64,000 nt of DNA from Prorocentrum cordatum (lineage: Eukaryota; Sar; Dinophyceae; Prorocentrales; Prorocentraceae), in assembly GCA_963575745.1 (NCBI GenBank), contig CAUYUJ010015760.1, positions 292,001 through 356,000 on the forward strand. The letters run 5' to 3'. Shown here piece after piece: positions 149 to 63,365 of the stretch; the stretch's first letter is position 1, and each line of letters starts with the position of its first letter. Under the pieces are notes generated by a model. That model was not told the origin of the DNA. It ran no database searches and saw nothing but the letters and a program-made list of their open reading frames with translations. Position numbers and translations under genes: made by a program.

Positions 149-1116
149 TTGAAGTGCCCCGAACCGACGCCCATTCAGGAAGTCGAGTTCTCTACAGCAT
201 TTATGTTGCAAGATCTGTATCAAGCGGGGGCACCTGCAGGGGGATCTGACGGATCATGGATTCAGGCCCAAAGTGCGGACGTGACAGGTAAGATTTCGAG
301 TGGCATTACTCCCACCGACATGCTGTGCGCCAACGATCCGTGGCGTGCTCAGGCGCAGCAACTGCCAGTGCCTTCAGGGCAACCTGCGTCGTTCGCACCT
401 ATGAGCAGAGCCTCACTCCATTCGGGGCTCCACAGAGTGCTGGGAGCACCAATAGCCCACAGGCCAGGCTCCAAAGCATTCGGATGGACCCGCAGCTCTA
501 CCAGGCTTTATAGGCGACATCGCCATTCGCATCGCCGCGTCCACATGCGGGGCAACCTGCTTTTCCTGATTACCACGCTGCACAGAGGGCCGAGAGGCGA
601 ATTCGCACAGAGCATGCGCATGGATGGCATCGACCTCCCTAACGCCAACTGGACGCCGCCATGGGAGTATGTCCCGGACCCAAATCCATCACCGGACAAC
701 CCCAATCGGTACGGATACGTGCCAGCATTTTTGGGTCATCCGACATATGATCCGACAGCTGCAGAGCGCCTACAGCGCCACCGATGGACTTCCCGTTGTA
801 TCCTGACTACCATGCTCAGGTAACTGGTAATCCTCGTGTGGGAATGCAGCCGGAGAGCCCGCATGTACGAGCGACGGCCGACGACTTCTACCAGTCTCAG
901 TTGACGCGCGGCTCTGGTTACGCGCCAGGTGTGCTGGGCCAGATTCCTCATAATGGATATTTGGCTACCCCTATGGACTCAGATGTGACGCAGCAAGCCC
1001 CCCGGCCTGGTATTGCCATCATCCATGGGGGATCTGCGCCCAGAGATTCTGGCCACTCACGAGGCGCAGCAGGCCAACCTTTTGATGCAATCGACCCGCC
1101 AGCGTCGCAACCATGA
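149..1116 (+). pseudogene. Region upstream of RING finger, copy A
   Basis: This stretch is split over several frames but matches one continuous frame of copy B (54,140-54,580). Shared landmarks include the peptides NANWTPPWE and DDFYQSQLTRGSGYA. Two frame changes, near 780 and 1,015, break it here. Hairpin motifs sit at 224-237, 374-387 and 547-560. Bases 1-148 align with 53,523-53,670 but have no long frame. No known domain is recognised; the sequence is Pro- and Gln-rich and probably a flexible lead-in to the RING finger. Confidence 0.6.
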
Positions 1117-2329
1117 GCGTCAGGCAACCATGATGTTGGGCCGTGCGGGGCAACCTGATACTCCAACCGCAGCAGGGGCACCTGCACGTAACCCGGCAGC
1201 ACTTGCAGCCAGGCAGCTACCGTCGGCCCCACCGATTCGATATGAGGTAGGTAAAACCACTCTGGAGCGCCAGCCGCGTATCAGGCCATCGGCAACAACA
1301 CCAGTCATCAGCGACGGTGACTTTAACAAGTGTGCCATATGCCTGGAACACTTCATGCATCGCGACAAGGTCTGGAGGCTTCAGTGTGGTCACATATTCC
1401 ATGCACAGTGCTTGGGCCGAGTTGCACATGCTCATGTGGACAGACAGCTGGCTGGCAATATGGAAGGTACTGCAACTGAGGCACCCTGCGCTATTTGCAG
1501 GGGCGTTGGGTTAATCACCGCTGAGTTTCATTATGCCCTTGCTGGAGATCAGGACGCATGGAATCGTCGTGAAGGGATCCTCCGAGGGACTAATGAACTT
1601 CGAGACCTTCGTGAAGAGCTCCACCGCGTCACGGCGATGATGATGAACAGCGCGGCAGCTCCCGCAACAACACCAGCGGGGCAACCTGCTTCGTCAGCCA
1701 ACGCGGGGCAGGCGACGGAAGCCACCGTGCCTGCTTTGGATACGCCCATGCCATTCATAGCAGAAGCAGCCAACAATGCAGGGACACCTGCCGCGACTGC
1801 ACCTGCCGCGCTGCCGGCCAACGACGCGTGGCTGAGGCGCATGGAGAGAGCCACCGAGAGGAGCGCTCAGTGGCTTCAGTCTCCACGTACCTACATGCCA
1901 CGCGGGCGAGATACCCGCCCGCGCAGCCAACGCAGGACGGAGAGCCCGGTGAGCGCGCGCAGTGGCATCAGTGTGAGATCCGAGCGCGACATGCTACACG
2001 CTGTGTTAATGGTAAACACAGATGGTCAGGTGGGCGCGCGTGCTGACGAGGATACGTTCATGAACATGCCGACTACATCTGCATCGCGCCCGTACGCGTA
2101 CGACGAGTATTCTACGGCCTGGACTTTTAAGAAGGTCCCAACTACGGAAGAGGAGGCCCGCGGATACATGGACGTCTTCACGTCTCTGTCAAGAAACATG
2201 TGGTGTTGGAGCAGAGGCGCCGCAAGGGCATGTATGGTACGACGCTGTCTGAAGTGCCAGGAATATTTGGAGAACGCCATGCGTTGGCTCTGGCAGCAAA
2301 CAGTGGGGCCATGGTGGATGGAATGCTGA
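1013..2329 (+). CDS. RING-H2 finger protein segment of polyprotein, copy A
   Basis: A frame of 438 codons; the first ATG is at 1,025, and the true reading frame probably enters from upstream by frameshift. Residues about 107-162 form a RING-H2 finger: CAIC, 14 residues, CGH, then H and C, 25 residues, then CAIC. All eight ligands and both spacings match copy B exactly. RING-H2 fingers usually bind an E2 enzyme and give ubiquitin ligase activity; that function is inferred. The rest is low-complexity Ala/Pro/Thr/Arg sequence with four AGxPA hairpin motifs (1,145-1,158; 1,172-1,185; 1,676-1,689; 1,778-1,791). The frame shifts near 2,200 relative to the downstream segment. Confidence 0.8.
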   Translation: MPSSMGDLRPEILATHEAQQANLLMQSTRQRRNHERQATMMLGRAGQPDTPTAAGAPARNPAALAARQLPSAPPIRYEVGKTTLERQPRIRPSATTPVISDGDFNKCAICLEHFMHRDKVWRLQCGHIFHAQCLGRVAHAHVDRQLAGNMEGTATEAPCAICRGVGLITAEFHYALAGDQDAWNRREGILRGTNELRDLREELHRVTAMMMNSAAAPATTPAGQPASSANAGQATEATVPALDTPMPFIAEAANNAGTPAATAPAALPANDAWLRRMERATERSAQWLQSPRTYMPRGRDTRPRSQRRTESPVSARSGISVRSERDMLHAVLMVNTDGQVGARADEDTFMNMPTTSASRPYAYDEYSTAWTFKKVPTTEEEARGYMDVFTSLSRNMWCWSRGAARACMVRRCLKCQEYLENAMRWLWQQTVGPWWMEC

Positions 2330-3261
2330 CAATCCGTTTGGGCATCGGCAGCAACATCAACATCATTGATCTAAAAACGGCACAGACATTCGAACAGGTA
2401 TCTCGCTCCCATGGACACGCTATCAAGAAGCTGAGCCTGACGAAGAGGCTCTAAGTGTCTGGAGTAGGACATGGCGCCGCGGTGTGTGACAAGTCCTTGC
2501 GCTGCAAAATTGCGTGCAAGGAAAGGGGGTGCCCGGCGGGGGCGCTCCTTGTGCCGAGATTTGATACCTACTCAGCAAACGTGGCTGAGGGTTCAGGGGA
2601 AAATCCCCTTGCTAGTCTGGGACAGAGGAGTGCGTCTAACATGGGGACTATCCGGATCCTGGAGCAGGGGCACGAGAAGATGATTATCCCTAGCTCTGAG
2701 ATGTATAAACTTCTGCTTGGAAAGGGCGCCTGGGTATTTGATTCGATGAAAACGCCTGCTGGGCATCTGGCACTCAAGGTCGACGAATGCGGGACCGCAG
2801 CTGAGGATGAAAAATCGATGTCGTTTACTATTACGGCCGACCCTCAATGCGAGGATGATCCGCTGCTCGTCAAAGAGGCATCTGACGCAGAGCCAGCCGC
2901 GGGGACACCTGCTATGAGCGATGCCCATACATATATGATGTCACAGGATACCAAGGGCATGAGCTTCTCCATCGACGAGGAGACGTTCGCTTATACGATC
3001 CAGTCTTTGGTGAATCGCACCTTGAAGACCTGGCATCGCAGGAATACGTCTTTCGGGACCAACCCCACCTCGACTGATCGGGACTTCGCCTTGCGCAACT
3101 TGCAGGCGAAGGTATATCAGGCCATCTACGAGGAGGGCAACAAGTGGATGCCGCCCGACGCACAAGCAGGGACACCTGCGGAAGTGGATGATACCGCTGA
3201 GAAGTTTGATATGCTTATTTCGAGCGGCGGCTCTGCAGCGCAGCATGGCACGGGCATTTGA
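2200..3261 (+). pseudogene. Retropepsin-like segment, copy A
   Basis: Two stretches in the same frame, separated by one TAA at 2,452-2,454 where copy B has Tyr (TAC). The arrangement recalls retroelement aspartic proteases: LALAANSGAM near the start where D-S/T-G is expected, then a hydrophobic region, the GSGENP and ILEQG segments, and a PAGHLALKV stretch. The expected catalytic Asp is Asn in both copies. Relative to copy B this copy keeps 11 extra residues around GSGENP (a 33-bp in-frame length difference). Hairpin motifs lie at 2,899-2,912 and 3,166-3,179. The protease assignment is an inference from position and pattern; an unrelated domain remains possible. Confidence 0.45.
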
Positions 3262-4457
3262 ACGCCCCGCATCGCCACATGAGTGACAGGGGCAGGCGCG
3301 TGCCACGGCCACTCGCGCTTGCTCCGACAGGCCGAACACTCAGGTGCTGTCATCAAGTGCGGGGAAACCTGCATTATTTTCTCAGGCGCCGGCTGTGCGC
3401 GCCAGGGACAGTGGCAAGCCCGGCTGCGCGGCTGCCACGGATAGCAGTGGACCTGGCTGCGTGGCCGCTGCAGAAAAAGAGTGCTCATCACATCATTATC
3501 ATACTCGTGCTCTTGTCATTGAGGACATACGGGCAGCTTGCGCTGAATTCCGAGCTCGTGCTTGCACGCGTGACCTTATTACACACAGAGTTTCTGACCT
3601 CTACTGGTACACAATATTTGGGTGCTCTACTCTCGGGAGATTACCAACTGTCATGGGTGGCAACGCCCGCTGATTGGCACGTTCGATTGCTTGGAAAGCG
3701 GGCAGGGCCACATTACCAACGCATCCAGAACTTAATGTCTAAGGCTTGGGCTCTACGTATGTCTACTGTACTTGTGGGACCGCCAGGTTACTTCTGGAAA
3801 CAGGGTCCCATACGAGATGCTATTGGAGATCTCGACTTGCAGGTCATGCGTATGCGATACTGCAATTTCGGAGTGAAGCACGACCGTTCAAGTAAGTTGC
3901 CTAGCGGATCATATCTGCAAGTGGCAACTACATGCGCGCGCATCCCTACCAACCTGTGGAAGTCTACGTGCCAAACAGCAGGGGCACCTGCACAACTTAC
4001 TGAGCATGAATTGGACTGGCATGGCCAAGGAGCTCGCAAGGCCGAATGGCGTAGCAAAGCGTTGGCTATCATGACCGCGAGATTGATTGATCAAGTGGAT
4101 TTAGACAAGACACAGAGAAACCACACGAGTGCTGTACAATTTAGCTTCCACACACGTGTGGATAAATCAGTTCAAACGTATGTTCAGTCTCCGAAGAATG
4201 ACCCTGAATGGGACCATGTCGTCCGACGGGTAACGATGAACCTGGGTGATAATCAGATTATACAAGACATCGAGATCCAGGACCAGCCTACCGGGTACAA
4301 TTACAATGCACCGTTGCCGACTGGTGTAACTAACATTCGTATTCGATGTTACTGGGGGCAGCCTGAACCGGCTCTCATCGGACACGGGGACCCACGTCCA
4401 CGCCCAACGCGAGTTGCGTTCGTCGGTGACGATCGCCCCCTCCCCCCCTTCGATTGA
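3258..4457 (+). CDS. Uncharacterised conserved domain, copy A
   Basis: A 399-codon frame. The conserved part, shared with copy B, begins around 3,520 and includes GDYQL, WVATPADWHVRL, GKRAGPHYQRIQNL and QVATT, followed by HTRVDK and VRRVTM. I do not recognise the family, but conservation with copy B is strong and this copy lacks the two stops that break the domain in B. Hairpin motifs are at 3,359-3,372 (GAAA loop) and 3,978-3,991. The frame closes at 4,455 because the C-rich run around 4,436-4,448 has one base more than copy B, which pushes the methyltransferase-like part into the next frame. Confidence 0.6.
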   Translation: MNAPHRHMSDRGRRVPRPLALAPTGRTLRCCHQVRGNLHYFLRRRLCAPGTVASPAARLPRIAVDLAAWPLQKKSAHHIIIILVLLSLRTYGQLALNSELVLARVTLLHTEFLTSTGTQYLGALLSGDYQLSWVATPADWHVRLLGKRAGPHYQRIQNLMSKAWALRMSTVLVGPPGYFWKQGPIRDAIGDLDLQVMRMRYCNFGVKHDRSSKLPSGSYLQVATTCARIPTNLWKSTCQTAGAPAQLTEHELDWHGQGARKAEWRSKALAIMTARLIDQVDLDKTQRNHTSAVQFSFHTRVDKSVQTYVQSPKNDPEWDHVVRRVTMNLGDNQIIQDIEIQDQPTGYNYNAPLPTGVTNIRIRCYWGQPEPALIGHGDPRPRPTRVAFVGDDRPLPPFD

Positions 4458-5736
4458 GCGCGGCCGCGTGCTCCCCTCTACTCCCGAAGTTCCGACGCTA
4501 AGTTCAGCTGATGTTGAACAACAGACAGCAGTGCCGACCGATGCCCGAATCAAACAGCAAGAACAACAGAAAGCCGACAAAGAAGCGGGCATCAAGCCAC
4601 GCAAGATACCCAAGATAGTCGAAGAAGGCAGCGATGACTGCGGAGATGACCTTAAAGGTCTCGGATGTAGTGCGTACTGCACCGACGTACCCCTTGACTC
4701 CGACACGGAAAGCGACGCTGAGGAGATTCCCATCAGATTACTTGCGGGGCCACTAGCTGAATCTTACGCAGACGTATTCTCCTCAACCCCAGCCTTCTGC
4801 TATGGACGACACAACAAGGTTGACATGTTGGAATTATGTGGAGGAAGTGGAGGTATATCGCAGCTAGCGTTCAGCCGAGGTTTGTCCTCAGGGGGAAGCC
4901 TAGACAAACGCTCACTGCTTGACTTTGAAAACAAGGATGTCCAGGACGCGGTGCTGCACTACCTAGACTTTTGTTTCGTCAACACTGTCATGCTACAACC
5001 CAACTGCAGAACAGCTGGACTACCTTCATATTTCAATTACAAGGTCAACTGTGATACCTGGTATGAACACCACAAAGAAGATCTGCCGCATATCAGATTT
5101 TGTGGTAAGGTTGATACATGTCAGAACGATCTTCGACGATTTTATTTACGAGAACAACCAGTGGGTGCGCGGGTGGATCAGATACCACCGTGGACTACAT
5201 TGGCCAAATGCAAGGGCACTTGCAATATGCACATGGACCAATGCACTACTGGCCTACGCGATTCCCATGGGGTGTTGATTCGAAAACCGACCGAGATCAT
5301 GGCCAACCACCGCCTTCTACGTACCCTTTTAGAACGAAGACGATGCGCTGGTCATCATCCGCATGCGTCGGCATGTAGCAGAGAGCTGTCCATGGCTGCA
5401 CATTATACGTCAAAGATGCAGTCCCTCTTTGTTGATGCAGTTCAGATCGCACACGATCTTTTCCAGGTAAACCGTGATCCCTTCCATGGTCACCCTTATT
5501 CTTCCACCGTGCTAGCTACCAGCGTGAGAGGATATGATTTGGACGATCCAACTCTCCCTCGGCAACCCGACAGCTCGATCACGAGACCGCCCTCGGGAGG
5601 GTTTGGATGTCCTGCATGTGCGGATAGCGTTAACATGCGCTCTCCCTCACATGACAGAAATCCCCAGCATTGCAGGTGGTACGATAAGGAACACTACTAT
5701 TGGGAATGTCCGAGCTGCAAGGAGAAACACGGCTAG
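4414..5736 (+). pseudogene. DNA-methyltransferase-like domain plus zinc module, copy A
   Basis: A 440-codon frame entered by frameshift from the preceding one. Residues about 140-149 read ELCGGSGGIS, resembling the Gly-rich SAM-binding motif I of class-I methyltransferases. About 55 residues on, QPNCRT puts a Cys (residue 198) where C5 methyltransferases have their PC motif. Further on come REQP, DQCTTG and RKPT blocks, shared with copy B. The C-terminus has one complete CX2CX10HX6C zinc module (from residue 399); the second is cut by TAG at 5,734-5,736. A diverged cytosine-methyltransferase relative is the best reading, but the canonical PCQ and ENV motifs are absent, so activity is unproven. 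Confidence 0.55.
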
Positions 5737-6445
5737 AACAAGTCTGGACATGTTCTGACACCTGGCAAATGCAAGTTTGCCAAACCCTGGAAGCTGCCGG
5801 ACAATCATGGACAGGTACCAGCGGCTCCTGCCGAACCAGCAGCAGGACCAGCACCGCCGGCTCCTGCTGAACCAGCAGCACCACCACCCGAAGCGCAAGC
5901 CGCATCACCACTTACGCGGCTACGAGCACCAAGACCCGACTCTAGAGCCGGATCCACGGCGGGCGCCAGCAGCCACGATATTACAGTAGGTAGACATGCT
6001 GCTAAACCGGCTGCAAGGCAACTTGCCTCGAGTGGAGCTGGGAGTTCGGATGGTCACCGCCGACTGCCACAGGGTAGAGTCAGACGTGGCCGACAGCAAG
6101 GTGGAGATGCACCTCCTCCGCCACCAGCGGGTAACCCTGCTGCACGACCACGACTACCAGATTGGTCACGGTTCGATGTGCAAATCAGTATCCAAAAATA
6201 TACGAAGCCTTGACCCAAGCGTGGTAACATGTGAGCTGCGGAAGGTACACTTGCCTTGGTTCCATGCGAAAGAACGTAAGATGAGACTCATCTTAACCAA
6301 GATAGGTCTGGACAGCGTCAGACTCAACCTGACCAAGGGTGTTTGCGACACATGTCGGGAGTGTAGGGCTTGGGACAAACCAGGGCATACGGTTATGCCA
6401 TCTACTGCGCTTGCCTGGCAAGTTCAGCGAAGAAGTGGAATGTGA
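5737..6445 (+). pseudogene. Second zinc module, Pro/Ala spacer and integrase N-terminus, copy A
   Basis: Just past the stop the second zinc module continues (GHVLTPGKC), then a Pro/Ala/Gln spacer whose true frame holds repeated PAPPAPAEPA-like blocks, then the integrase N-terminal region (5,996-6,445). The latter contains a His-rich stretch and ends with CDTCREC, the C-x2-C half of the HHCC zinc site of retroviral-type integrases. The frame breaks at about 6,411, where copy A has one extra T compared with what copy B implies, so the integrase core is in another frame. Confidence 0.6.
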
Positions 6446-7064
6446 CCTGGTGTTCCACAAACAAGAACACAACATATTTCATGTCATCGATCGTTGCATT
6501 CGATATGCCATTGGAATCGAGATACGAGACAAGACGATAAGCAGTTTCCTAGAAACATACCTTCAGTGCTGGCTGCAGTTTGGACCTGCAAAGGTACTCT
6601 ACTCCGACGGAGAGGGTGCCCTCAACAATGACACTGCGAAAGCGGTTTTTCAGGCAAAGGGCACTGAACTAAGGATACGTGCGCGTGGACAACACGCTAC
6701 AACGATCGAAGCCAGAAATGGCAGATTGCGCCATCTACATCATGTCATGGAAGCTGAATTCAACAGGTTAGACATACCTCTTGTGTTCACACGACTATTG
6801 CACGAGGCCCTGTTTGCCGCCAGCGCGCTCACCTTCTATAACGAGGTGTCTCCATGCAACGCCCTGTTTGGACGGCAACCAGCAATGCTTCCTGACCTAC
6901 CTGTCCTGGAGCACGAACAGCCGACGGCAACGTCGGATCATTCTCGTGCACAGATGATGCGCAAGAACTGCATTGAAGCTATCACACAGGCCAGAGCAGC
7001 AGCCCAGACCAATCGTGCATTATGCACCAAGGCAACTGTTACCGGCCAGCATTACTACGATTGA
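6339..7064 (+). pseudogene. Integrase catalytic core, copy A
   Basis: Retroviral-type integrase core (rve family), which would join the cDNA to host DNA. The candidate DDE residues are Asp at 6,444 (VECDL), Asp at 6,606 (SDGEGAL) and Glu at 6,708 (IEARNG), with 53 and 33 residues between them. The C-terminal NALFGRQPAMLPDL block is typical of Copia integrases. Unlike copy B, this copy keeps the 14 bp after RLRHL, so the core is continuous here, but a one-base gain near 6,411 disconnects it from the zinc domain. It ends in TGA at 7,062. Confidence 0.85.
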
Positions 7065-8361
7065 GGAGATTTTGTCGACTACCATTGCCCCACAGCCACG
7101 ATAGACGACTGGGGAGGCTGGAATGGCCCATTCCCAATTGTCAGGAGCGATCCCGAAAGAGGTCAAGTCATCATTCGAGTGGGAAACCGCGATGTCCAGG
7201 CACAGCACGGCAATGCACGACATTCACTCTATATTGAAGCCCTAATAACCAGAGAAATTAGGCTCCGACAACACTGCGCTGCGGACTGCGTTGACTTTCG
7301 TGGCCAGTTTACCTGCGGGGAGACCTGCTATGACATGTGGCCATGCACCGACCAGGAAGGGGGCGCTTCAGATGACGAGCGCAAGCCGTCTATCTCCTAA
7401 GGTACATCTAGCTTTACAGTACCTTATCAGAGACTTCTTCCGCAATGAGAATGTAGATTTGGTCAGGTTAGCTAAAAGTATATATAAGCTACCTCCGATT
7501 GCTTATGCTGACACTTGCACATTGGCCCACTATGGCAACGATGCGAATCCAGGATTATGATTCAGAAGGCACCTCGCTGAACATTCACGATATATCTGAA
7601 TCAGCACATTCGAGAATCATCCAGTGCCGAAGTCCACCGAACGTCAAGCAGGTTTTGACCAGGACATGACAAGGTTTGAGGAATTGGCGGATGCACCGAC
7701 ACCGGCTGGAATTGCAAGAGAAGCTTCATAAGCCGAACCACCACATGAGGGCGGACGGCTTCCCACGATTTATGAGGAATCGGAGTCCGATCTCGGGTCA
7801 CACGTCATGGAAGTGCGGCATGCAGAACTACAAGATGAAAAGGAACTGCTGGAGGCAACTCCACTAGAGGACCTTCTCACAATACCCACGCATATGGTTC
7901 CATACCATAGTGTGCTGATCACTGCAGCTGCAAAAACAGCGGGGAAAACTGCCTAAGTGGGGGCAGCCGCGCGACTCCGACACTGAGGAGACGTATCACG
8001 TCCCACTGTGCTCCATAGTCGAACTCTGCAGCTTCGGACAGGACCCAGACGAAAACGGACAATATGTCGAACTCTTAGCTTCACGGCAGAAATGTCAAAG
8101 GTAGTCCTGTCCGGACAACAGCACATGATACTAGATGCCGACCGTGTGACCACTATGCGAGTATGCGTTACCGCCGCTGCAAAGCGAGCTGCGGTCGGCA
8201 AGGAAGACGACCTCCTCGCGAAGGCTGACGCCCAGGCGAATCCCGAGCAAGTATCGAAGGCCCTCTACACCGAACTCAAGACATGTTTTGACAACAAGTG
8301 TTCCAACATGCAAGACATTTCCAAGGCGTCAAACAGCATGACTTCGAGGTATGTGTACTAG
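7065..8361 (+). pseudogene. Integrase-RT linker, copy A
   Basis: Matches 60,510-61,812 of copy B. Recognisable shared pieces: LSPKVHLALQYLIR (7,390-7,430), an acidic stretch near 7,670-7,860, and the run-in to RT at 8,090-8,361 (TEMSKVVLSGQQHM; DADRVT; ELKTCFDNK; MTSRYVY). The frame is broken several times, and a TAG at 8,359-8,361 sits one codon before the TAG found in copy B. Hairpin motifs are at 7,315-7,328 (GAGA loop) and 7,939-7,952 (diverged). Confidence 0.65.
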
Positions 8362-9372
8362 TGGAAGTTTGCGACGAGAAGGGCAAGATGGAACGTGCCA
8401 TCATATGGCGCCTGGTGCTCTGAGGCTTCATGGACCTTGAAGCCTCCGACGTGAAAGCCTTTTCGGGAACGGCGCGGCGGTCAGGCCAGAGGGTACTCGC
8501 GAGCACGGCAGCGTGCAGGAAGCAATGGATCACTGCTTCCCTCGACATCAGCATGACCTTCCTGAAATGGGTTGGCCTGCCAGGAACTCGTTGAAGCAAC
8601 TGGTTAAAAGGAGTGGGTCGTGTGTTTTACTTTGCCGCCTGGATCGGCCACGGTGCTTCGGGCTCTCCCAGGAATCGAGCACTACGACGAGTCAAAGCAC
8701 TGCTTACAGTGCCTCAAACCAGGCACTGGCACCGAAGACGCACCCCGAGCTTTCTCATTAAAGCTCAGAAGGACCACCAGAGGGCTTGATCTCCGACCCA
8801 CGTCCTACGACGAGGAGTCCGAGACGAGCAGCAAGCTGCTTACGGCCAAACATGTTGATGATAGCAAGATGGCCGGCACAGAGAGCACCAATGACAGGTC
8901 TGTCAAGTGCGTAGAGGACACCTTCGGCAAGTGCAAATTCAACAAGAACACCTACACCACTTGTGTCGTGAGATATACCAAGGATGAGGACGGCCATGTT
9001 ACCTTGGACCAAGACGAAAACATCAATCAGGTCCGTCCTATACAACATCCTGGACTTACTGGCGCTGGCGCAGTACAACATCCAATACAACATCATGGAC
9101 AACATCCGGCACGTCACGCTCAGGCACCCAAGATGGTTGCAGACATGTTCGTCAGCCTCAGAGGCGCGCTGGCGTACGTATTAATCAGCCAGTTGCGGTT
9201 GATGGTGTATGTAGTATCTCTACAACGTGTCCAAGAACCGACCAATATGCAAGCACGACGACTGCGCGCGATCATCAGGAAACTGCAGGCTCGTCCCAAG
9301 AAGATCGTCTATCAAGCGATGACCACTACAGCGAGGTCGACCTGCGCAGCGACTCAGGTTACCGACGCCTGA
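8362..9372 (+). pseudogene. Reverse transcriptase, copy A
   Basis: Copia-type RT in pieces. Visible motifs: RLVL followed by a TGA in WRLVL-stop-GFMDLEA; ASLDISMTFLK (8,535-8,570; copy B has SLDIKMAFLKG); CLKPGTGTEDAPRAFS (8,717-8,758); and LTAKHVDDSKMAGTE (8,837-8,885), where HVDD replaces the usual YVDD. RT would copy the element RNA into cDNA. Stops and frame changes at 8,421-8,423, around 8,575-8,600 and near 8,645 abolish function. A short tandem expansion of CAACATC-like units lies at 9,040-9,115, absent from copy B. Confidence 0.85.
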
Positions 9373-9955: not shown

Positions 9956-10111
9956 GGAGTATCTTTATGCACAGAATAGTACAGGCAAGGCAACCTGCGT
10001 GCGGGCCCACCTTCCTTACGGCCCCGCCTTTTGCTGTCTTTTTTGAAGATCGTACCTGCTGCGCCTGCTGTTTAGGGGCGGCGGACCTACGTCTCGTCTC
10101 CCTCCCCCCCC
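9956..10111 (+). other. 3' untranslated segment and pyrimidine tract, copy A
   Basis: Non-coding stretch between the RNase H stop and the LTR. It contains a hairpin-motif variant at 9,985-9,998 and ends in a C/T-rich tract of about 22 nt that abuts the LTR. A retroelement would be expected to have a purine tract here; copy B shows the same pyrimidine tract. Confidence 0.6.
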
Positions 10112-13625: not shown

Positions 13626-13689
13626 TCCTTATTCACGGGACTCGCCTGGGCGGCTGCAGTTGCATTTCGCACGTCGAGCCTCCACATAC

Positions 13690-50218: not shown

Positions 50219-50221
50219 TTT

Positions 50222-51247: not shown

Positions 51248-51312
51248 CGGAAAGGGACTACGATCCAGCCACTCGTGCAGAGATAGCTCAGGCAGAGGCC
51301 ACTTGGCAGAAC

Positions 51313-55556: not shown

Positions 55557-55614
55557 CCCACTGCCTCCACATCACACCCATATATGTATGACGAATACCC
55601 TATAGCCTGGATCT

Positions 55615-56979
55615 TTGAACAGAATCCTATTACAGAAGAAGAGGCTCGTGGGTGTACGAATGTGTTCACATCTTTGTCAAGAAATGCTTGGGTGTTGGAA
55701 CAGAGGCGCCGCAAAAGGTTTACTTGGTACGACAGTGCCCGAAGTTCTTGGAACATTTGGTGGACGCCATGAGCTAGCCTTGGCAGCTAACAGTGGAACT
55801 ATGATCAATGGTATGTTGAATTTTAGTTTGGAGATTTGCAGTAATACCAATATCATTGGATTCAAGACGGCGCAGCACTTTGAGCAGGTATCACGCTCCT
55901 ACGGACTCGCCATTAAAAGGCTGAACCTCACGAAGAGGCTTTACGCGTCAGGAGTGGGACATGGCGCCGCGATTTGCGACAAATCCCTGCACTGCAAGAT
56001 CGCATGCAAAGAAAGGGGAGATGCCGCGGGGCAACCTGCTGCGCCGAGACTTGACACGCACTCAGCAACTATCTTGGGTCTGATGAGCATGTCCAACATG
56101 CGGACTATCCTGATCCTTGAGCAGGGGCGCGAGAAGATGACCATCACTGGATTGGAGATGTACAAGGTTATGCTCGGCAAGGGTGCCAGGGTATTCGACC
56201 TGATGAAGACGCCCTCCGGGCATCTGGCACTCAAAGCTGACGGATACGAGACGGCTTCTGATAATCAAGGGTCGATGTCCTTTACTACCACGGCCAATCC
56301 CCAGTGCGAAGAAGCTCCATTACTCGTCAAGGAAGCATCCGATCCAGAGCCAATCGCAGGGGCACCTGCTGTGCATGATGCCCACGCATACATGGTGTCA
56401 CAAGATACGAAGGGCATCAGTTTCTCTATTCATGAGGAGACGCTCGCTTTCACGATCCAGTCTTTGGTGAATAACACCTTGCGGACATGGCATCGTGGAA
56501 ATATGTCCTTTGGGACGACCCCTGCCTCGGCCGACAAGGACTTCGCCCTCCGCAATTTGCAGGCGAAGATATATCAGGCCATCTACGAGGAGGGCACGAA
56601 GTGGGCGCCTCCTGATGCACAGGCAGGGTCACCTGCGGAAGTGGATGATACTGCTGAGAAGTTTGATATTTTTTACTTCAAGCAGCGATTCTGCAGCGCA
56701 GCACGGCACTGGTATTTGGGCGCCCCCATCGCCAAACGAGTGGCGGGGGCAGGCGCGTGCCACGGCCACTCGCGCTTGCTCAGACAGGCCGAATACGCAG
56801 GTGCTGTCAGCAAACGCGGGGGGACCTGCATTCTTTTCCCAGGCGCCGGCTGTGCGTGCCAGGGACCGCGGCAAGCCCGGCTGCGCGGCTGCCACGAACA
56901 GCAGTGGACCCGGCTGTATGGCCGCTGCAGAAAAAGAAGGATTGTCGCATCATTATCACTCTCGTGCACTTGTCATTGA
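55615..56979 (+). CDS. Retropepsin-like segment, copy B
   Basis: A 454-codon frame. Similarity to copy A runs from about 55,680 to 56,690. LALAANSGTMINGML stands where the D-T/S-G of an aspartic protease is expected, with Asn for Asp as in copy A. It continues with GVGHGAAICDKSLHCKIACK, ILEQGREKMTITG and FDLMKTPSGHLALK. The last 100 codons (after 56,690) are probably out of frame: the conserved-domain reading switches to another frame there. Compared with copy A it lacks 33 bp after HSAT. The protease call rests on order and pattern, not on an intact active site. Confidence 0.45.
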   Translation: MNRILLQKKRLVGVRMCSHLCQEMLGCWNRGAAKGLLGTTVPEVLGTFGGRHELALAANSGTMINGMLNFSLEICSNTNIIGFKTAQHFEQVSRSYGLAIKRLNLTKRLYASGVGHGAAICDKSLHCKIACKERGDAAGQPAAPRLDTHSATILGLMSMSNMRTILILEQGREKMTITGLEMYKVMLGKGARVFDLMKTPSGHLALKADGYETASDNQGSMSFTTTANPQCEEAPLLVKEASDPEPIAGAPAVHDAHAYMVSQDTKGISFSIHEETLAFTIQSLVNNTLRTWHRGNMSFGTTPASADKDFALRNLQAKIYQAIYEEGTKWAPPDAQAGSPAEVDDTAEKFDIFYFKQRFCSAARHWYLGAPIAKRVAGAGACHGHSRLLRQAEYAGAVSKRGGTCILFPGAGCACQGPRQARLRGCHEQQWTRLYGRCRKRRIVASLSLSCTCH

Positions 56980-57379
56980 GGATATACGGACAGCTTGCGC
57001 TGAACTCCGAGCCCGTGGATACATGTGCGATCCTATTACACATACGGAGGTGATGACCTCTACTGGTACACAGTGTTTGGGTGCGCTACTCGCGGGTGAC
57101 TACCAACTGTTGTGGGTTGCAACACCTGCTGACTGGCATGTGAGGCTCGCTGGCAAGAGGGCAGGGCCTCACTACCAGCGTATCCAAAATTTGTTGTCCA
57201 AGGCTCGGGCTCTACGCATGACTATTGTACTTGTGGGGCCACCATGATATTTCTTGAGACAAGGTCCCATACGAGATGTTATCGAAGACCTTAACGTACA
57301 AGTCATGCGCATGCGTTTCTGCCACTTCGGCCTCAAGTACGACCGCGCGAACAAGTTGCCCAGCTGATCATATCTGCAA
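56690..57379 (+). pseudogene. Uncharacterised conserved domain, copy B
   Basis: Matches copy A 3,220-3,960: GDYQLLWVATPADWHVRL, GKRAGPHYQRIQNLLSKARA, LVGPP then a TGA at 57,245-57,247 (GGT or GGA Gly in the relative), VQVMRMRFCHFGLKYDR, and a second TGA at 57,365-57,367 where copy A has GGA. The hairpin at 56,816-56,829 encodes AGGPA. Function unknown; it directly precedes the methyltransferase-like part. Confidence 0.55.
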
Positions 57380-59413
57380 GTGGCGACTACGCGCACGCGC
57401 ATCCCTGCAAATTTATGGCGATGCGCATGCAATGTAGCAGGGGAGCCTGCAGAACCGACTGAGCATATTCTAGACTGGTATGGACAATGTGCTCAGAAGG
57501 CTGAATGGCGGAATCAGACACTAGCGATCATGACCGCCAGGTTGATTGATCCAATGGATAAACATGAAACACAAAGAAATCACACAAGTGCTGTACATCT
57601 GAGTATTCATACTCGTGTTGATAAAGGAGTTCGAACTTACGTTCGGTCTCCTAAGAATGGCCCTGGGTGGGGCCATGTTGCGAGACGGGTGACGATGAGC
57701 CTGGACGACAACACGATCATCCAGGACATCAAGACCCAGGACCACCCGACTGGGTACAGCTACAACGCACCATTACCCGATGGCATTACCAACATCCTTA
57801 CTCGACTGTACTGGGAGCAGCCGGAACCGACTCTCTTGGGACATAGCAGCTCACGGCCACGCTCAAGGCGAGTGGCGATCATCGATGGCGATCGCCCCCC
57901 TCCCCCTTCGATTGAGCGCGGCAGCGTGCTTCCCTTTATTCCCGAACTTCCGCCACTTAGCTCACCAGAAACAGAACAACAGACAGCACTACCAGCAGAT
58001 GCCAGAATTAAACAAAAAGAAAAGCATAAAGCAAACAAAAAAGCTGGCATCAAACCAAGCAAGATACCCAACATAGTCGAAGACGGCAACGACGACTGTG
58101 GGGGCGACCTCAAAGGACTCGGATGTAGCACGTACTACACCGACGTTCTTCTGGACTCCGACACGGATAGTGACGATGGAGAGGAGACCTTCATCACCCT
58201 ACCTGCGGGGAAGCCTGCTGAATCTCATGCAGATGTACTCCCCATAATCCCCACCTTGTGTTACGGACGACGCAACAAGGTAGAGCTGTTAGAACTATGT
58301 GGGGGATTTGGAGGCATCTCCCAGCTAGCATTCAGCCGAGATCTGTCTTCAGGGGGAAACCTCGACACACGTACTTGTGTTGACCTTGGAAACAAGGAGG
58401 TCCAAGATGCAGTGATGCACTATTTCGACGTTTGTTTCGTCAAGGTTGTCGTGCTACAGCCCGGCTGCAGAACGACTGGCTTGCTTTCTTACTTCGCTGC
58501 GAAGGTCAACTACGGCACCTGGCATGAACATCATAAAGAGGATTTACCACGCATCAAGTTCTGTGGGAAGGTAGCTGTACGTCAAAATGATCTTCGACGA
58601 TTCTACCTAGGAGAACAACCAAGTGGGACTTGGGTTGATCAGATGCCACCATGGACTACGTTGGTCAAAAGCAAGGGCACTTGCAAGGTGAACGTGGATC
58701 AATGTACTACTGGTCTACGTGATTCCCATGGGGTACTGATACGAAAACCGACTGAGATCATGGCCAACCATCGTCTATTATTTCTTCCTTTTGAACGAAA
58801 GCGATGTAGTGGCCATCGTCCACATGCGACGGTATGTAATAAGGAACTGTCCATGGCTGCGCAATATGCACCGAAGATGCAGTCGCTCTGTGTTGAATCT
58901 GGTCAGATCGCACACGATCTCTTCCAGGCAACTCGTGTCCCTTTCTATGGCTGCCCATATTCGCCCACCGTGATGGCCACCAACGCAAGGGGATACGATT
59001 TGGACGACCCGAGTCTTCCCCGACAACCCGATAGCTCGATTGCGAGACCACAGCCGGGAGGGCTTGGTTGTCCTGCCTGCGCGGATAACGTTAACACGCA
59101 CTCTCCATCTCATGATAGAGATCCGAGACATTGCAGATGGTACGATAAGGGCGACTATCATCGGGAGTGTCCGAGCTGTAAGAAGAACTACGGGAAACAC
59201 AAACCTGGACATGCACTAACACCTGGCAAATGCAAGTTTGCCAAGCCTTGGAAGCTTCCCGACAATCATGGACATATTCCGCCGGTTCCCGTCGAACCGG
59301 CAGCAGGACCTGCACCGCCAGATCTTGCTGAAGTAGCAGCACCACTGCCCGAGGTGCCAGCAGCACCAGCACCTACGCGACTGAGGGCGCCGAGACCTGG
59401 CTTGAGAGCTTGA
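57380..59413 (+). CDS. Methyltransferase-like domain with twin zinc modules, copy B
   Basis: The longest intact frame of the element, 677 codons. Residues 1-165 complete the preceding conserved domain. Residues 200-300 are charged and acidic (DSDTDSDDGEE). From residue 305, ELCGGFGGIS resembles SAM-binding motif I; QPGCRTTG follows with Cys at about 363; GEQPSG near 412; DQCTTGLRDSHG near 440; RKPTE near 456. Then two identical-spacing zinc modules, CX2CX10HX6C, at residues 564-585 and 597-618, and a Pro/Ala tail. A diverged C5-methyltransferase-like enzyme is the best reading; PCQ and ENV are not present in canonical form. Cytosine methyltransferases carried by retrotransposons have been reported in dinoflagellates. 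Confidence 0.6.
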   Translation: MATTRTRIPANLWRCACNVAGEPAEPTEHILDWYGQCAQKAEWRNQTLAIMTARLIDPMDKHETQRNHTSAVHLSIHTRVDKGVRTYVRSPKNGPGWGHVARRVTMSLDDNTIIQDIKTQDHPTGYSYNAPLPDGITNILTRLYWEQPEPTLLGHSSSRPRSRRVAIIDGDRPPPPSIERGSVLPFIPELPPLSSPETEQQTALPADARIKQKEKHKANKKAGIKPSKIPNIVEDGNDDCGGDLKGLGCSTYYTDVLLDSDTDSDDGEETFITLPAGKPAESHADVLPIIPTLCYGRRNKVELLELCGGFGGISQLAFSRDLSSGGNLDTRTCVDLGNKEVQDAVMHYFDVCFVKVVVLQPGCRTTGLLSYFAAKVNYGTWHEHHKEDLPRIKFCGKVAVRQNDLRRFYLGEQPSGTWVDQMPPWTTLVKSKGTCKVNVDQCTTGLRDSHGVLIRKPTEIMANHRLLFLPFERKRCSGHRPHATVCNKELSMAAQYAPKMQSLCVESGQIAHDLFQATRVPFYGCPYSPTVMATNARGYDLDDPSLPRQPDSSIARPQPGGLGCPACADNVNTHSPSHDRDPRHCRWYDKGDYHRECPSCKKNYGKHKPGHALTPGKCKFAKPWKLPDNHGHIPPVPVEPAAGPAPPDLAEVAAPLPEVPAAPAPTRLRAPRPGLRA

Positions 59414-59447
59414 CCCACTGCGGGCGCAAGCAGTCACGACATTACTG

Positions 59448-60200
59448 TTGGAAGACATGCTGCTGAGCCAATTGCAGGGCAAACTGCGTCGAGTGGAGCT
59501 GGTAGTTCGGATGGCCATCTCCGACTACCACAGGTTAGAGTCAGACGTGGTCGACAACAAGGTGGAGAAGCACCCCCACCACCACCAGCAGGGAACCTTG
59601 CTGCACGACCACGACTACCAGACCGGTCACGGCTCGATGTACAAATCAGTCTACACAACTTGCGAAGTCTTGACCCCTAGCGTGGTCACGCGCGAGTTGC
59701 GAAAGCTGCACTTGCGCTGGTTCCATGCAAAGGGGTCTAAGATGATACTCATCTTAAGCACAATAGGTCTGGATAGTGTTAGACTCAACCTCATCAAAGG
59801 CGTCTGCGACACGTGCCGAGAATGCAGAGCTTGGGACAAACCTGGACACGCAGTTATGCCCTCTACTGCATTACCCGGTGAATTCAATGATGAAGTGGAA
59901 TGTGATTTGATGTTCTGCAAGCAGGAACAGATATTTCACATTATCGATCGTTGTATGCGATATGCTACTGGGATGGAAATACCAGGCAAAACTATGACCA
60001 CTATCCTGGATGCATATCATCAGTGCTGGATGCAGATTGGACCGGCTGAGGTATTTTACTTCGATGGAGAAGGTGCCCTTAATAATGGCACTGCGAAAGC
60101 AGTCCTCAAGGCAAAAGGCACTGAACTTAGAACGCGTGCGCGTGGACAGCACGCTACGACGACCGAGGCCAGAAATGGCATCCTACGTCATGGAGGCTGA
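59448..60200 (+). pseudogene. Integrase, zinc and catalytic domains, copy B
   Basis: A 250-codon frame: His-rich spacer, TRELRKLHLRWFHAKG and CDTCRECRAWDKPGH (HHCC-type zinc site), then the core with Asp at 59,904 (VECDL), Asp at 60,063 (FDGEGAL) and Glu at 60,165 (TEARNG). It ends prematurely because 14 bp present in copy A (CTACATCATGTCAT) are missing after 60,191; a TCAT flank on each side suggests microhomology-mediated loss. Would insert the element cDNA. Confidence 0.85.
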
Positions 60201-61116
60201 ACTCAATAGGTTAGACATACCTCCTGTGTCCATCAGACTACTGCACGAAACCTTGTTCGCCGCCAACGCATTTACCTTATATAATGAAGTGTGTCTCCAT
60301 GCAACGCTTTGTTTGGACGGCAACCAGCAATGCTCCCTGACCTTCATGTTCTGGACCACGAGCAGCCGACAGAAACATCGTGTCATTCTGGTGAACAGAC
60401 GATACGCATGGTACGTATTGAAGCGATCACACAGGCCACGGCAGTAGCTAAGACCAATTGTGCCCCACGCTCGCAGACGTCAATTACAGGTCAGCACTAT
60501 TATGACGAAGGAGATTTGGTCGATTACCATCGCCCTCTGCGAAAGATGACTGGGGAGGCTGGAACGGCCCGTTCCCAGTCGTAAGGAATGACCCCGACAG
60601 GGGTCAGGTCATCATCCGAGTAGGCAATCGAGATGTTCAAGTACAATACGGCGATGCAAGACATTCGTTATATGTATTGAAGCACTCATAGCCCGAGAGA
60701 CTGGCTCCGACAACGCTGCGCCACGCACAATGTTGACGTTCGTAGCCAGCCTGTCAGCGGGGAGACCTGCCCTGACATTTGGCTATGTGCGGACCAAGAC
60801 AGGTACGCTTCAGATGACGACTGCAAGTCGTCTATCCCCAAAGGTGCACTTGGCCCTACAATATCTCATCCGAAACTTCTTTCGCATTGAGAACGCAGTT
60901 TCGGTTAGATCAGCCGAGAGTATCCACAAGCTACCTCTGGTTACTTATGCTGACAGCTGCACATTGGTCCATTACGACAACGATGTGGATCCATGATTTT
61001 ACTACTATGAAGCAGAAGGTACTGCTCTGAATATACATGACATAATTGGACCAGCACGTTCACGAATCATCCAATGCCTGAAGTCCACTAAATCTCAGGC
61101 AGGCTTCGATCAGGGC
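60201..61116 (+). pseudogene. Integrase C-terminus and linker, copy B
   Basis: In the shifted frame: VMEAELNRLDIPP and LHETLFAANAFTLYNEV, then a 2-bp TG gain at about 60,288 that moves NALFGRQPAMLPDL into another frame. It continues with QHYYDEGDLVDYH (60,497-60,530), further pieces to 60,700, and LSPKVHLALQYLIRNFFR (60,835-60,890). The hairpin with GAGA loop at 60,757-60,770 encodes AGRPA. Confidence 0.65.
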
Positions 61117-61812
61117 ATGTCAAAGTTTGAGGATTTGGCTGATGCGCCGACACCTGAAGGAGCCACAAAAGAGGCTCCAGAAGCCGAACCAGAACATGAT
61201 GACGGACGGCTCTCTACGATCTGCGAGGAATCAGAAGCTGATCTTGAGTCACATGTTACGGAGGTGCGGTGCGCAGAATTGCAAGAGGACAGAGAACTGT
61301 TGGAGGCAGCTCCACTACAGGACCTCTTTACCGTACTCACACATATGGTTCCTGATCAGGGTGCGCTGATCACTGTAGATGATGAACAGCGGGGGCACCT
61401 GCCGAAGCGGGGACGCACTCGCGATCCCGATACCGAGGAGACGTACTACGCCCCCCTGTGCACCATGGTCGAAGACGACAGCTACGGACTCGACTCTGGC
61501 GAAAACGGTCGATACGTTGAATTGTGCTTTACGACAGAAATGTCAAAGGTAGTCTTGTCCGAGCAGCAACACATGCTATTAGATGCCGACCGGGTGACCG
61601 CTATGCGAGTATATTCTACCGCCGCTGCAAAGCGAGCTGCGGTCGTCATGGAAGACGACCTCCTCGCCAAAGCTGGCATCCAGGCGAATCCTGAGAAAAT
61701 ATCGAAGGCCCTTTTTACTGAGCTCAAGACATGGTTCGACAACAAATGCTGTAAGATGCAGGAAATAGCCAAAACGTCGAGCATCATGACTTCGAGGTAC
61801 GTATACAAATAG
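61117..61812 (+). CDS. Linker leading into RT, copy B
   Basis: 231 codons, intact to the TAG at 61,810. An acidic first half (EAPEAEPEHDDGRLSTICEE), then the run-in to RT: TEMSKVVLSEQQHMLLDADR, LAKAGIQANPEKISKALFTE, LKTWFDNKCCKMQ and MTSRYVYK. The TAG replaces what should be Trp. The hairpin at 61,389-61,402 is read here as RGHLP, not AGAPA. Confidence 0.65.
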   Translation: MSKFEDLADAPTPEGATKEAPEAEPEHDDGRLSTICEESEADLESHVTEVRCAELQEDRELLEAAPLQDLFTVLTHMVPDQGALITVDDEQRGHLPKRGRTRDPDTEETYYAPLCTMVEDDSYGLDSGENGRYVELCFTTEMSKVVLSEQQHMLLDADRVTAMRVYSTAAAKRAAVVMEDDLLAKAGIQANPEKISKALFTELKTWFDNKCCKMQEIAKTSSIMTSRYVYK

Positions 61813-62741
61813 AAATCCGCGAAGAACCAAAAGGGCGAGATGGAACGTACCATCCGACTTCGCTTGGTACTTCGAGGCTTCATGGGCCTTGAAGCTTTCG
61901 ACGTAGAAGAATTTTCGGGAACTGCAAGAAGGTCGAGTCAGACGTTGCTCGCCAGCGTGGCAGCGTGCAAGAAGCAGTGGATCATTGCTTCCCTCGACAT
62001 CAAGATGGCCTTCCTGAAGGGACTGACCTATCAGGAACTCGCTGAGGCAACTGGTGAAAAGGAACGCGAGGCGTGCTTTACTTTGCCGCCTGGATCGGCC
62101 ACTGTGCTCCGTGCCCTTCCAAAATTTGAGAATTACGACCAAAGCACTGCCTGCAGTGATTGAAACCGGGCACAGGCACTAAGGACGCCCCACGGGCTTT
62201 CTCATTTAAGCCCAGGGGAACCACCAGAGGATTTGGCCTCCGACCCACGTCTTACGACGAGGGGTTCGAGACGAGCAATACTTTGCTCACGGCCAAGCAT
62301 GTTGATGATATCAATATGGCGGGCACTGAGGACACCATTGACAAAAATGGCAAATGCGTTGAGAATGTTTTCGGTAAGTGTAAACTCACCGAGCACACGT
62401 ATACTAACTGTGATGTGAGATACACTAAGGACGAGGACGGAAATGTTACCTTGGATCAATATGAATATATCAAACAGCTCTGTCCTATACAACATCTCGA
62501 ACTAACCGGCGCTGACGCTGGCGCTCAAGCAACCAAGATGTTGGCAGACATGTTCGTCAGTCCCAGAGGTGCGCTGGCATGCGCACTGATCACCCAGGCG
62601 CGGTTAATGGTGCATGTTGTATCTCTACAGCGTGTCCAAGAACCGACCAACATTCAGGTGCGACGACTGAGCGCGATCACCAGAAAGTTACAGGCCTGCC
62701 CGAAAAAAGATCGTCTATCAGGCGATGAACCCCACGGGTGA
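61813..62741 (+). pseudogene. Reverse transcriptase, copy B
   Basis: Copia-type RT in two frames. First frame: RTIRLRLVLRGFMGLEAFDV, WIIASLDIKMAFLKGLTYQE (catalytic Asp at 61,996), FTLPPGSATVLRAL. A 4-bp deletion at about 62,139 and a TGA at 62,161 break the join. Second frame: LKPGTGTKDAPRAFSFK, LTAKHVDDINMAGTEDT (HVDD at 62,298-62,309 in place of YVDD) and DQYEYIKQLCPIQH. Copies element RNA into cDNA. Confidence 0.9.
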
Positions 62742-63365
62742 GGTCGACTTACATAGCGACTCAGGCTACCGACGCTTGAGTGGAGAGGCCGACGACGACG
62801 CCAAAGGCGATGGTATTCGCGGGGCAATCTTGCTACGACGTGGAAACACGTCATTTGGTAAGCCTGTCGTTCACTTGATCGACGCGCACTACAAGTCTCA
62901 CCGCTTGCAGGTCCGCTCGAGCTAGTCAGCAGAGACACTAGCAGCAGCCCGTCATGTGGAGGACTGTTATCCCACGATTGTGACTCTGCACGAGCTCCAC
63001 GCAGGGCCGCTCGCGCCCACTCAGTTGAAAGATATACTCGAGTTGGGTGGCCTGAGCATCAAGGTCACTTTGGCCATTGATGCTGAGTCTGTTTTTAAGT
63101 CCTTGTCAAGCAAAGATTTGATCACTCCGACTGAGTGTACCCTTTTGGACACATCAGTTGGATACGTCAGATGATGGAGCGTGGAATCGTGCACAGTTTT
63201 CAGTGGTGCGATACCCGCGACATGACTGCGGATGGCTACGCCGAGGAGAGCATCGACAGAGATATACCCCTACAAGTCATGGGAGGTATACAGACCTTCG
63301 AACATGACCTGAAGAGACATACGACATATCGGGCCGGCCAGACATCAAGTTCTGACGCCGCCTGA
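62742..63365 (+). pseudogene. RNase H, copy B
   Basis: DLHSDSGYRRLSGE (Asp at 62,758), VHLIDAHYKSHRLQVRSS, then TAG at 62,923 (Tyr in copy A), SAETLAAARHVEDC (Glu at 62,932), LAIDAES (Asp at 63,079), and after a frame change CDTRDMTADGYAEESIDRD (Asp at 63,231). The four acidic residues needed for catalysis can all be placed. A hairpin variant lies at 62,819-62,833. Confidence 0.85.

Follow-up and report, generated by a model that had tools for sequence, protein, structure and literature searches.

Hairpin array in two giant retrotransposons

The 64,000-nucleotide stretch of the dinoflagellate Prorocentrum cordatum analyzed here (assembly GCA_963575745.1, contig CAUYUJ010015760.1, positions 292,001 to 356,000; the window) contains two ~16-kb Ty1/copia-like long terminal repeat (LTR) retrotransposons, elements A and B. 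Both carry an array of one short hairpin of the form 5'-GC-NNN-GNNA-N'N'N'-GC-3', in which the foot and loop bases are fixed and the inner stem is free but paired. Sequence comparisons indicate that this array is almost certainly kept by selection on RNA structure. The chances are about even that the hairpins act in cis as dispersed packaging signals of this giant Ty1/copia-like lineage, read by its own Gag.

Across the window, the pattern GCRGGNNNNCCYGC has 32 matches, whereas 100 shuffles that preserve dinucleotides average 0.99 +/- 0.95 and never exceed 4. The array that a sequence-only reading had noticed in both elements is thus real, and it is larger than first stated; all 17 positions given there as examples are among the matches. 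Thirty-one matches lie inside the elements (11 in A and 20 in B). Because GCRGGNNNNCCYGC is its own reverse complement, orientation must be taken from the GNNA loop, which is present in 27 of the 31, the exceptions being the sites at 6127, 54678, 57437, and 58205 (degenerate hairpins in Table 1). The strict form GC NNN GNNA N'N'N' GC occurs 35 times on the plus strand of the window (12 in A, 21 in B, and 2 between the elements) and once on the minus strand (19176, between the elements). The 37,592 bases between A and B therefore hold only three hairpins, as few as had been claimed. The earlier figures of about 16 and 26 copies included near-matches, the strict counts in the window being 12 and 21, and the GCRGG/CCYGC stem proposed as the consensus is the common form but misses AAG/CTT (5210, 6013, 48358, and 58671), ATG/CAT (48485), and GTG/CGC (59680).

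The array is shared by relatives of A and B elsewhere in the assembly. Element C (C1:2,045,383-2,061,818) has long open frames, and F is another copy of this element (94% identity over aligned columns). D, E, and G cluster with A and B at 71 to 82% identity, H is diverged, with only 600 to 900 bp in common with other elements at ~65% identity, and K (C26) represents a further family. A extends 5.6 kb beyond the window on its upstream side. Strict coding-strand counts are 18 for A (6 of them upstream of the window), 21 for B, 47 for C, 17 for D (over its whole 25-kb stretch), 16 for E, 51 for F, 16 for G, 9 for H, and 39 for K. The hairpins span from directly behind the 5' LTR, with leader hairpins 140 to 270 nt after it in A and B, to the last stop codon. 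A, B, and K have no minus-strand hairpin and C has five; the single orientation relative to the coding strand that had been described for A and B is confirmed. No Rfam family matched at gathering score in the window, L009, L010, L021, L046, or L047.

Two other origins were rejected. The shuffle controls and strand counts exclude chance, and a feature of double-stranded DNA is rejected because its orientation would be mixed, yet the strands are strongly unequal.

Pairing follows the loop

Among all 14-mers of the form GC NNN GNNA NNN GC on the element strands, all three inner pairs form in 186 of 282 (C and F both counted), whereas the same 14-mer with other loops is fully paired in 44/680, 39/254, and 19/234 cases and on the minus strand in 7/68. 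When F, a near-duplicate of C, and the RGG/CCY stems are left out, 39 of the remaining 122 14-mers are still fully paired, where permutation gives a mean of 12.1 (maximum 23 in 2,000). In K, 39 of 49 candidates pair against a permutation mean of 8.7 (maximum 17 of 5,000), with 2/55, 3/24, and 1/28 for other loops and 0/4 on the minus strand. K stems are diverse (GGG/CCC 9, TCG/CGA 6, AGG/CCT 6, GAG/CTC 5, TGG/CCA 3, and eight further kinds): pair 3 is GC in 17, TA in 10, AT in 7, CG in 4, and GT in 1, and pair 4 is GC in 20, CG in 9, AT in 5, TA in 3, and TG in 2. The loop-closing pair of K is G-C in 39/39 hairpins and the loop is GNRA in 38/39. In C the third loop base is C in 38/47, which makes GNNA the more general description. 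In K, C directly follows the hairpin in 34/39, and a sixth pair is possible in only 3/39.

Coding-sequence controls and codon frames

Synonymous-codon shuffles, set beforehand by the sequence-only reading as a possible refutation, do not account for the array. In the open-frame pieces of A and B (19 pieces, all without internal stops), RGG/CCY stems number 10 in A against a shuffle mean of 0.18 (maximum 2 of 500) and 16 in B against 0.43 (maximum 3). In C, they number 27 against 0.4 (maximum 3) and other stems 19 against 1.75 (maximum 7), and the frames of K hold 33 hairpins of all stems against 2.2 (maximum 7). Minus-strand hairpins and HNNB loops in A to C stay at shuffle level or lower, save for the minus strand of C.

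The peptides encoded by the hairpins differ between families, being AGxPA in A to C and RGNPP-like in K (e.g., RGNPP, LGNEP, and QGNLP), and therefore the hairpin is not a protein motif. Hairpins occupy all three codon phases, and one hairpin of C (17426) starts at the last base of a stop codon. A repeat conserved as protein, such as a linker or protease site of sequence AGxPA whose codons are biased, would fit the predominance of phase 0 in C (37/47) and in A and B, but K is mainly in phase 2 (25/39, by longest open frame) with different peptides, and the start at a stop codon has no place in it. In addition, the scanned frames of A, B, and C contain 50 AGxPA peptides, of which 47 encode the 5-bp stem; Gly is GGG in 47/50 and the X codon ends in A in 44/50 while its first two bases vary, so that third positions are fixed where first and second positions are not, and the peptide is not kept regardless of its codons. 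At the third base of the last Ala, which falls immediately past the hairpin, all four letters are found. The peptide seems to be a side effect of the hairpin, and we consider the protein explanation extremely improbable.

Covariation and site-by-site conservation

Stems change on both sides in a paired manner. Between B and C, 10 pairs are changed on both sides, and 7 of them, at six sites, still pair. In comparisons of C with A, B, G, and E, 55 of 107 double changes are paired, against 13 to 40 of 84 to 99 with slid partners; the excess is moderate, as A-type elements lack counterparts for many hairpins of C. Between K subfamilies, two sites have both sides changed (GGG/CCC to GAG/CTC and GGG/CCC to AGG/CCT). 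In the whole genome, AAG/CTT stems (3,625; control, 165) outnumber either single step, AAG/CCT (865; control, 513) or the G-U-paired AGG/CTT (1,573; control, 212), and AGG/CCT reaches 13,618 (control, 734), giving an odds ratio of ~36 across the four stem combinations, although these counts are not independent events, the copies being related.

Hairpin columns also diverge less than their surroundings. In parts of four K copies, taking columns with a perfect hairpin in at least one of the four, K26 and K78 differ by 25.5% outside and 5.7% inside hairpins (~17/297), K26 and K130 by 26.2% and 6.5%, and K26 and K15 by 7.7% and 3.7%. At one K site, the hairpin is missing from K78 and K130; at another, near the end of the stretches compared, it is present in K26 only. 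In an alignment of 25 copies of the RING region (A, B, D, E, and G plus 20 stretches chosen from 138 places, which were listed for 79 scored candidates out of 8,377), there are six shared hairpin sites, five of them intact in 18 to 22 copies and one in 10. Its four-fold sites give a weak test: 7 sites inside hairpins range from 0.58 to 1.00, and 120 outside have a mean of 0.63, with 22% at 0.9 or above.

Quasi-palindrome correction is an established mutational mechanism, in which template switching, here during reverse transcription, perfects imperfect palindromes; it would yield paired double changes without selection. It explains neither the fixed GC feet and G..A loop, nor the rarity of minus-strand hairpins, nor the lower divergence inside hairpins, nor the near-chance pairing with other loops, and this loop specificity speaks strongly against it, making it an improbable source of the covariation. 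Compensatory stem changes, the conserved loop, strand asymmetry, codon-shuffle controls, and different codon frames instead bear out the earlier suggestion of an RNA structural code.

Origin of new hairpins

Alignment gaps over hairpins measure 21, 30, and 48 nt between C and F, those of 30 and 48 nt being whole hairpin-plus-spacer repeats. Between families they are 18 nt long at A 3978 and at A 6013 and 12 nt long at a site of the RING region; elsewhere the alignment is unreliable, with longer or ragged gaps. None of the gaps inspected is a clean 14-nt insertion or shows a target duplication. The alignments suggest that new hairpins arise in place via point changes and small duplications.

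Rickettsia palindromic elements are palindromic sequences tolerated in coding frames, and the sequence-only reading had likened the hairpins to such a mobile mini-insertion family. The likeness extends to palindromes within coding frames, and presence/absence differences at some sites between families and copies would suit a sequence spreading through the element. However, the stems vary freely, so that beyond the foot and loop there is no conserved mobile sequence, and the gap lengths at the inspected sites are not those of clean insertions. This part of the earlier reading has to be given up as very unlikely.

Genome-wide distribution and metagenomic relatives

In the 4.13-Gb assembly, GCRGGGNNACCYGC has 29,557 + 32,230 matches, against 3,235 + 3,336 for the reversed pattern. 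The same stem with HNNB loops is found 159,127 times, a count that takes self-reverse-complementary loop classes twice and includes the GNNA reverse complements; less these 61,787, ~12,170 remain for each of eight loop classes, compared with 61,787 for GNNA. Of the 36 matches listed for contig C1, two elements account for 29, leaving 7 isolated ones against 5.7 expected from the control rate. The isolated loci L001 to L003 have no blastn match at 1e-5 to any of six element copies, but L004, from the diverged H, is also unmatched, which means that this test misses distant relatives. Within the loci looked at, the hairpin excess seems confined to these elements.

Thirteen metagenomic homologs are known here as proteins alone. 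The scarcity of AGxPA among them (3 of 13, with 1, 1, and 3 occurrences) first gave the impression of relatives without hairpins, which was dropped after phase 2 was analyzed. A hairpin in phase 2 constrains the peptide as follows: the first residue is followed by G and then by N, D, H, or Y; K/Q/E in fourth place calls for L in first place, R/G/W for P, M/V for H, L for Q, and T/P/A/S for R; and the next residue has a C-codon. The homologs contain 22 peptides that fit this rule, against 3.0 in shuffled (maximum 9 of 200) and 5 in reversed proteins. Among 44 cases of the frame [LPQRH]G[ND]x[LPHQR], 22 fit Watson-Crick pairing, a number reached by 12 of 5,000 permutations, and 27 fit with G-U allowed (1 of 5,000); the homologs are mutually related and the cases not fully independent. 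Phase 0 gives 8 peptides against 1.3 shuffled (maximum 4), and phase 1 gives no signal (6 against 5.7 shuffled and 14 in reversed proteins). These peptides suggest that the hairpin array is probably older than the split between these lineages. No relative was found in viral contigs scanned with P0001.

Possible function of the array

The combination of a fixed foot and loop with a free stem points to a protein ligand. Two G-C foot pairs and the G and A of the tetraloop appear to be required, while the inner three pairs would mainly need to pair, so the reader protein would recognize loop and foot and ignore stem sequence. The Gag of the element would be the likeliest reader: its CCHC nucleocapsid part may bind many hairpins jointly, and the element's RNA would thereby be selected and compacted into particles. 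Gag is a natural candidate because each copy must package its own RNA, because the hairpins extend from just past the 5' LTR as far as the final stop codon, and because satellite tobacco necrosis virus (STNV) is reported to use ~30 stem-loops with AXXA loops in an assembly indifferent to stem sequence (PMC3593212). Dispersed packaging signals with RGAG loops are likewise described for hepatitis B virus (HBV). As in these viruses, the sequence counts and controls give tens of copies of one short stem-loop type along one genomic RNA, with conserved loop bases and a stem that is largely free but paired. The present case differs in being an LTR retrotransposon with an exact 5-bp stem on a fixed foot, strong compensatory covariation, and tens of near-uniform copies per 16 kb.

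Several observations weigh against a hairpin array kept for packaging. Native context does not improve the predicted folding of hairpins over random element context in A (0.63 versus 0.67), B (0.52 versus 0.72), C (0.46 versus 0.73), or G (0.73 versus 0.73); only K with 40-nt flanks is slightly better (0.90 versus 0.84), and with 100-nt flanks it is worse (0.79 versus 0.84). Like stems in A to C are able to cross-pair. The five minus-strand hairpins of C exceed their shuffle mean of 1.03 (maximum 4 of 100), and the other-stem hairpins of A (2 against 0.41, maximum 4) and B (2 against 0.91, maximum 3) taken alone lie within the codon-shuffle range. One-sided stem breaks affect four K26 sites, two K15 sites, and one K130 site, and of the 10 double changes between B and C, 3 are unpaired, falling at two sites that lack a hairpin in C. 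In the accessible text of a review of Ty1 and Ty3 RNA encapsidation, the terms hairpin, dispersed, and "packaging signal" are not mentioned (PMC4974528).

Other RNA-level roles fit the hairpin structure equally well, including one tied to the RNA 2'-phosphotransferase (Tpt1/KptA) domain that the element carries in B, G, C, and K. The hairpins may have been selected for ribosome pausing between polyprotein domains, for stability or export, for shielding the RNA from cleavage by the host or repairing it afterwards, or for control of reverse transcription. Such roles draw on the same structural evidence as packaging, and many C hairpins, judged by eye, lie in Ala/Pro-rich linkers; however, hairpins also occur close behind the 5' LTR and in the coding sequence of the putative integrase and of the reverse transcriptase, which pure pausing at domain boundaries does not predict. 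We regard this group of roles as a serious possibility, somewhat less probable than packaging by Gag. In a broader form, the standardized tetraloop-hairpin array across all frames may serve the element as a multivalent code for recognizing itself, with Gag or a different RNA protein of the element as its reader. This code would predate the split between the families and the metagenomic relatives, whose proteins would retain a trace of the paired stems; we give this reading slightly less than an even chance.

Among the titles and abstracts listed from the open-access literature on retrotransposon hairpins, packaging signals, and dinoflagellate elements, none describes such an array, and the available text of a review of dinoflagellate genomics lacks the terms "hairpin," "palindrom," and "stem-loop" (PMC11453091). 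The known dinoflagellate retrotransposons bearing a DNA methyltransferase resemble these elements in having an additional nucleic-acid enzyme, but they are LINE and DIRS elements, and "hairpin" is absent from the main text describing them (PMC5890265).

Elements and encoded domains

A and B are 71 to 79% identical by segment. The paired LTRs typical of Ty1/copia elements are present in A and B (Table 1), C (99% identity), and K (89%); the 5' LTR of A lies upstream of the window, in L021 at 4372-4625. C encodes a Gag-like open reading frame (ORF) with a CCHC motif, a Tpt1/KptA domain, a RING finger, and a copia reverse transcriptase. RVT_2 is matched in family C (PF07727, E 2.5e-11), and A and B align with C by DNA across this part, while none of the ten pieces of A and B scanned with Pfam has an RVT_2 match of its own. 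An integrase-like SDGEG stretch was seen by eye 5' of the reverse transcriptase, where the copia order would place an integrase, with no integrase Pfam match in the ORFs scanned. The zf-CCHC match of family C is weak (E 0.0022, under its cutoff). LTRs, RVT_2, and CCHC motif are thus as in Ty1/copia LTR retrotransposons, from which these elements differ in their ~16-kb length, their RING and Tpt1/KptA domains, and the hairpin array.

The Tpt1/KptA-like domain is unusual cargo for a retrotransposon, and no title or abstract found in the open-access literature reports one in such an element. Its Pfam E values are 5.3e-10 in B, 7.4e-5 in G (below the curated cutoff), 7.6e-15 in C, and 5.5e-19 in K; outside the window, it lies in L009:3895-9998 (residues 922-1061), L046:4182-7184 (residues 640-782), and L018:7290-8093. 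A RING finger occupies the same polyprotein region in A, B, and C (window 989-2329 and 53907-55556; L009:3895-9998), with best E values of 3.7e-7, 1.2e-6, and 2.5e-7. A protein search with the RING region gave one protein only, labeled P. cordatum, with 100% identity over 8% of the query; the gene model P0014, labeled P. cordatum and named protein-tyrosine-phosphatase, has a stretch identical to part of the RING-region frame and is perhaps a chimeric annotation. A well-conserved domain with MLELCGG...QP.CRT.GLPSYFN motifs (window 4330-5736; L010:816-4607), which we take to resemble a class I methyltransferase, has no Pfam match at E 0.01.

The copies in L009/L010 (C1) and L016/L017 (C2) have LTR pairs that are 99% identical, and C has an open frame of 2,306 amino acids, which suggests recent activity of these copies. 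Between A and B lie tandem arrays of 89-nt units (13689-15214), of 11-nt TTGGCATTGCG-like units (16022-17735), and of 32-nt units with AACATGGGATGTT palindromes (26730-30530). The hairpin at 7315 is common to C and appears as AGKPA in K and in the metagenomic P0001 and P0004.

Table 1. Retrotransposon features and hairpin sites in the window; copies are those of the 25-copy RING alignment
Feature	Position	Strand	Remark
Element A	1..10365	+	3' two thirds of ~16.0-kb LTR retrotransposon; LTR pair 92% identical
3' LTR of A	10112..10365	+	LTR pair comparison
Element B	47958..63773	+	~15.8-kb LTR retrotransposon; LTR pair 91% identical
5' LTR of B	47958..48218	+	LTR pair comparison
3' LTR of B	63516..63773	+	LTR pair comparison
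CCHC zinc-knuckle motif (C-X2-C-X4-H-X4-C), Gag region of B	49904..49945	+	Pattern match; candidate hairpin binder
Tpt1/KptA-like RNA 2'-phosphotransferase fragment	53148..53510	+	Pfam PF01885
Hairpin GCGGG-GGCA-CCTGC (A)	224..237	+	
Hairpin GCGGG-GCAA-CCTGC (A)	547..560	+	Homologous site intact in 18/25 copies
Hairpin GCAGG-GGCA-CCTGC (A)	1172..1185	+	Intact in 20/25 copies
Hairpin GCGGG-GCAA-CCTGC (A)	1676..1689	+	Intact in 22/25 copies
Hairpin GCAGG-GACA-CCTGC (A)	1778..1791	+	Intact in 18/25 copies
Hairpin GCGGG-GACA-CCTGC (A)	2899..2912	+	
Hairpin GCAGG-GACA-CCTGC (A)	3166..3179	+	
Hairpin GCGGG-GAAA-CCTGC (A)	3359..3372	+	
Hairpin GCAGG-GGCA-CCTGC (A)	3978..3991	+	18-nt indel versus family C
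Hairpin GCAAG-GGCA-CTTGC (A)	5210..5223	+	Site and stem common to B and C
Hairpin GCAAG-GCAA-CTTGC (A)	6013..6026	+	AGG/CCT here in E and G
Degenerate hairpin, loop TAAC (A)	6127..6140	+	Pattern match
Hairpin GCGGG-GAGA-CCTGC (A)	7315..7328	+	Putative integrase C-terminal side, AGRPA
Leader hairpin GCAAG-GAAA-CTTGC (B)	48358..48371	+	140 nt past 5' LTR
Leader hairpin GCATG-GAAA-CATGC (B)	48485..48498	+	Aligned bases GGG/CCC in family C
Hairpin GCAGG-GTAA-CCTGC (B)	49306..49319	+	GGG/CCC in family C
Hairpin GCGGG-GCAA-CCCGC (B)	49477..49490	+	GGA/TCC in family C
Hairpin GCGGG-GCAA-CCTGC (B)	50195..50208	+	
Hairpin GCGGG-GAAA-CCCGC (B)	50386..50399	+	
Hairpin GCGGG-GAAA-CCCGC (B)	50776..50789	+	
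Hairpin GCGGG-GCAA-CCTGC (B)	51985..51998	+	
Hairpin GCGGG-GCAA-CCTGC (B)	52411..52424	+	Within 24-nt tandem array
Hairpin GCGGG-GCAA-CCTGC (B)	52435..52448	+	Within 24-nt tandem array
Degenerate hairpin, loop GCAG (B)	54678..54691	+	Pattern match; site intact in 18/25 copies
Hairpin GCAGG-GACA-CCTGC (B)	54705..54718	+	
Hairpin GCGGG-GCTA-CCTGC (B)	55209..55222	+	
Hairpin GCAGG-GGCA-CCTGC (B)	55266..55279	+	
Hairpin GCGGG-GCAA-CCTGC (B)	56026..56039	+	
Hairpin GCAGG-GGCA-CCTGC (B)	56356..56369	+	
Hairpin GCAGG-GTCA-CCTGC (B)	56623..56636	+	Aligned: C GCGGG..CCCGT, F GCGGG..CCCGC
Hairpin GCGGG-GGGA-CCTGC (B)	56816..56829	+	
Degenerate hairpin, loop GGAG (B)	57437..57450	+	Pattern match
Degenerate hairpin, loop GAAG (B)	58205..58218	+	Pattern match
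Hairpin GCAAG-GGCA-CTTGC (B)	58671..58684	+	
Hairpin GCGTG-GTCA-CGCGC (B)	59680..59693	+	GTG/CAC in E and G
Hairpin GCGGG-GAGA-CCTGC (B)	60757..60770	+	Putative integrase C-terminal side
Hairpin GCGGG-GGCA-CCTGC (B)	61389..61402	+	AAG/CTT in family C

Significance

Little is understood of how retrotransposons discriminate their own RNA from that of the cell, and the case for dispersed packaging signals has been made mostly in small viruses. The very many genomic copies, each with tens of sites, constitute natural covariation data by which the packaging idea becomes directly testable. The peptide rule of the hairpin offers a route to detecting RNA structure from proteins alone, and the array indicates that a short RNA fold can dictate codon choice, and even peptide choice, over a 16-kb element.

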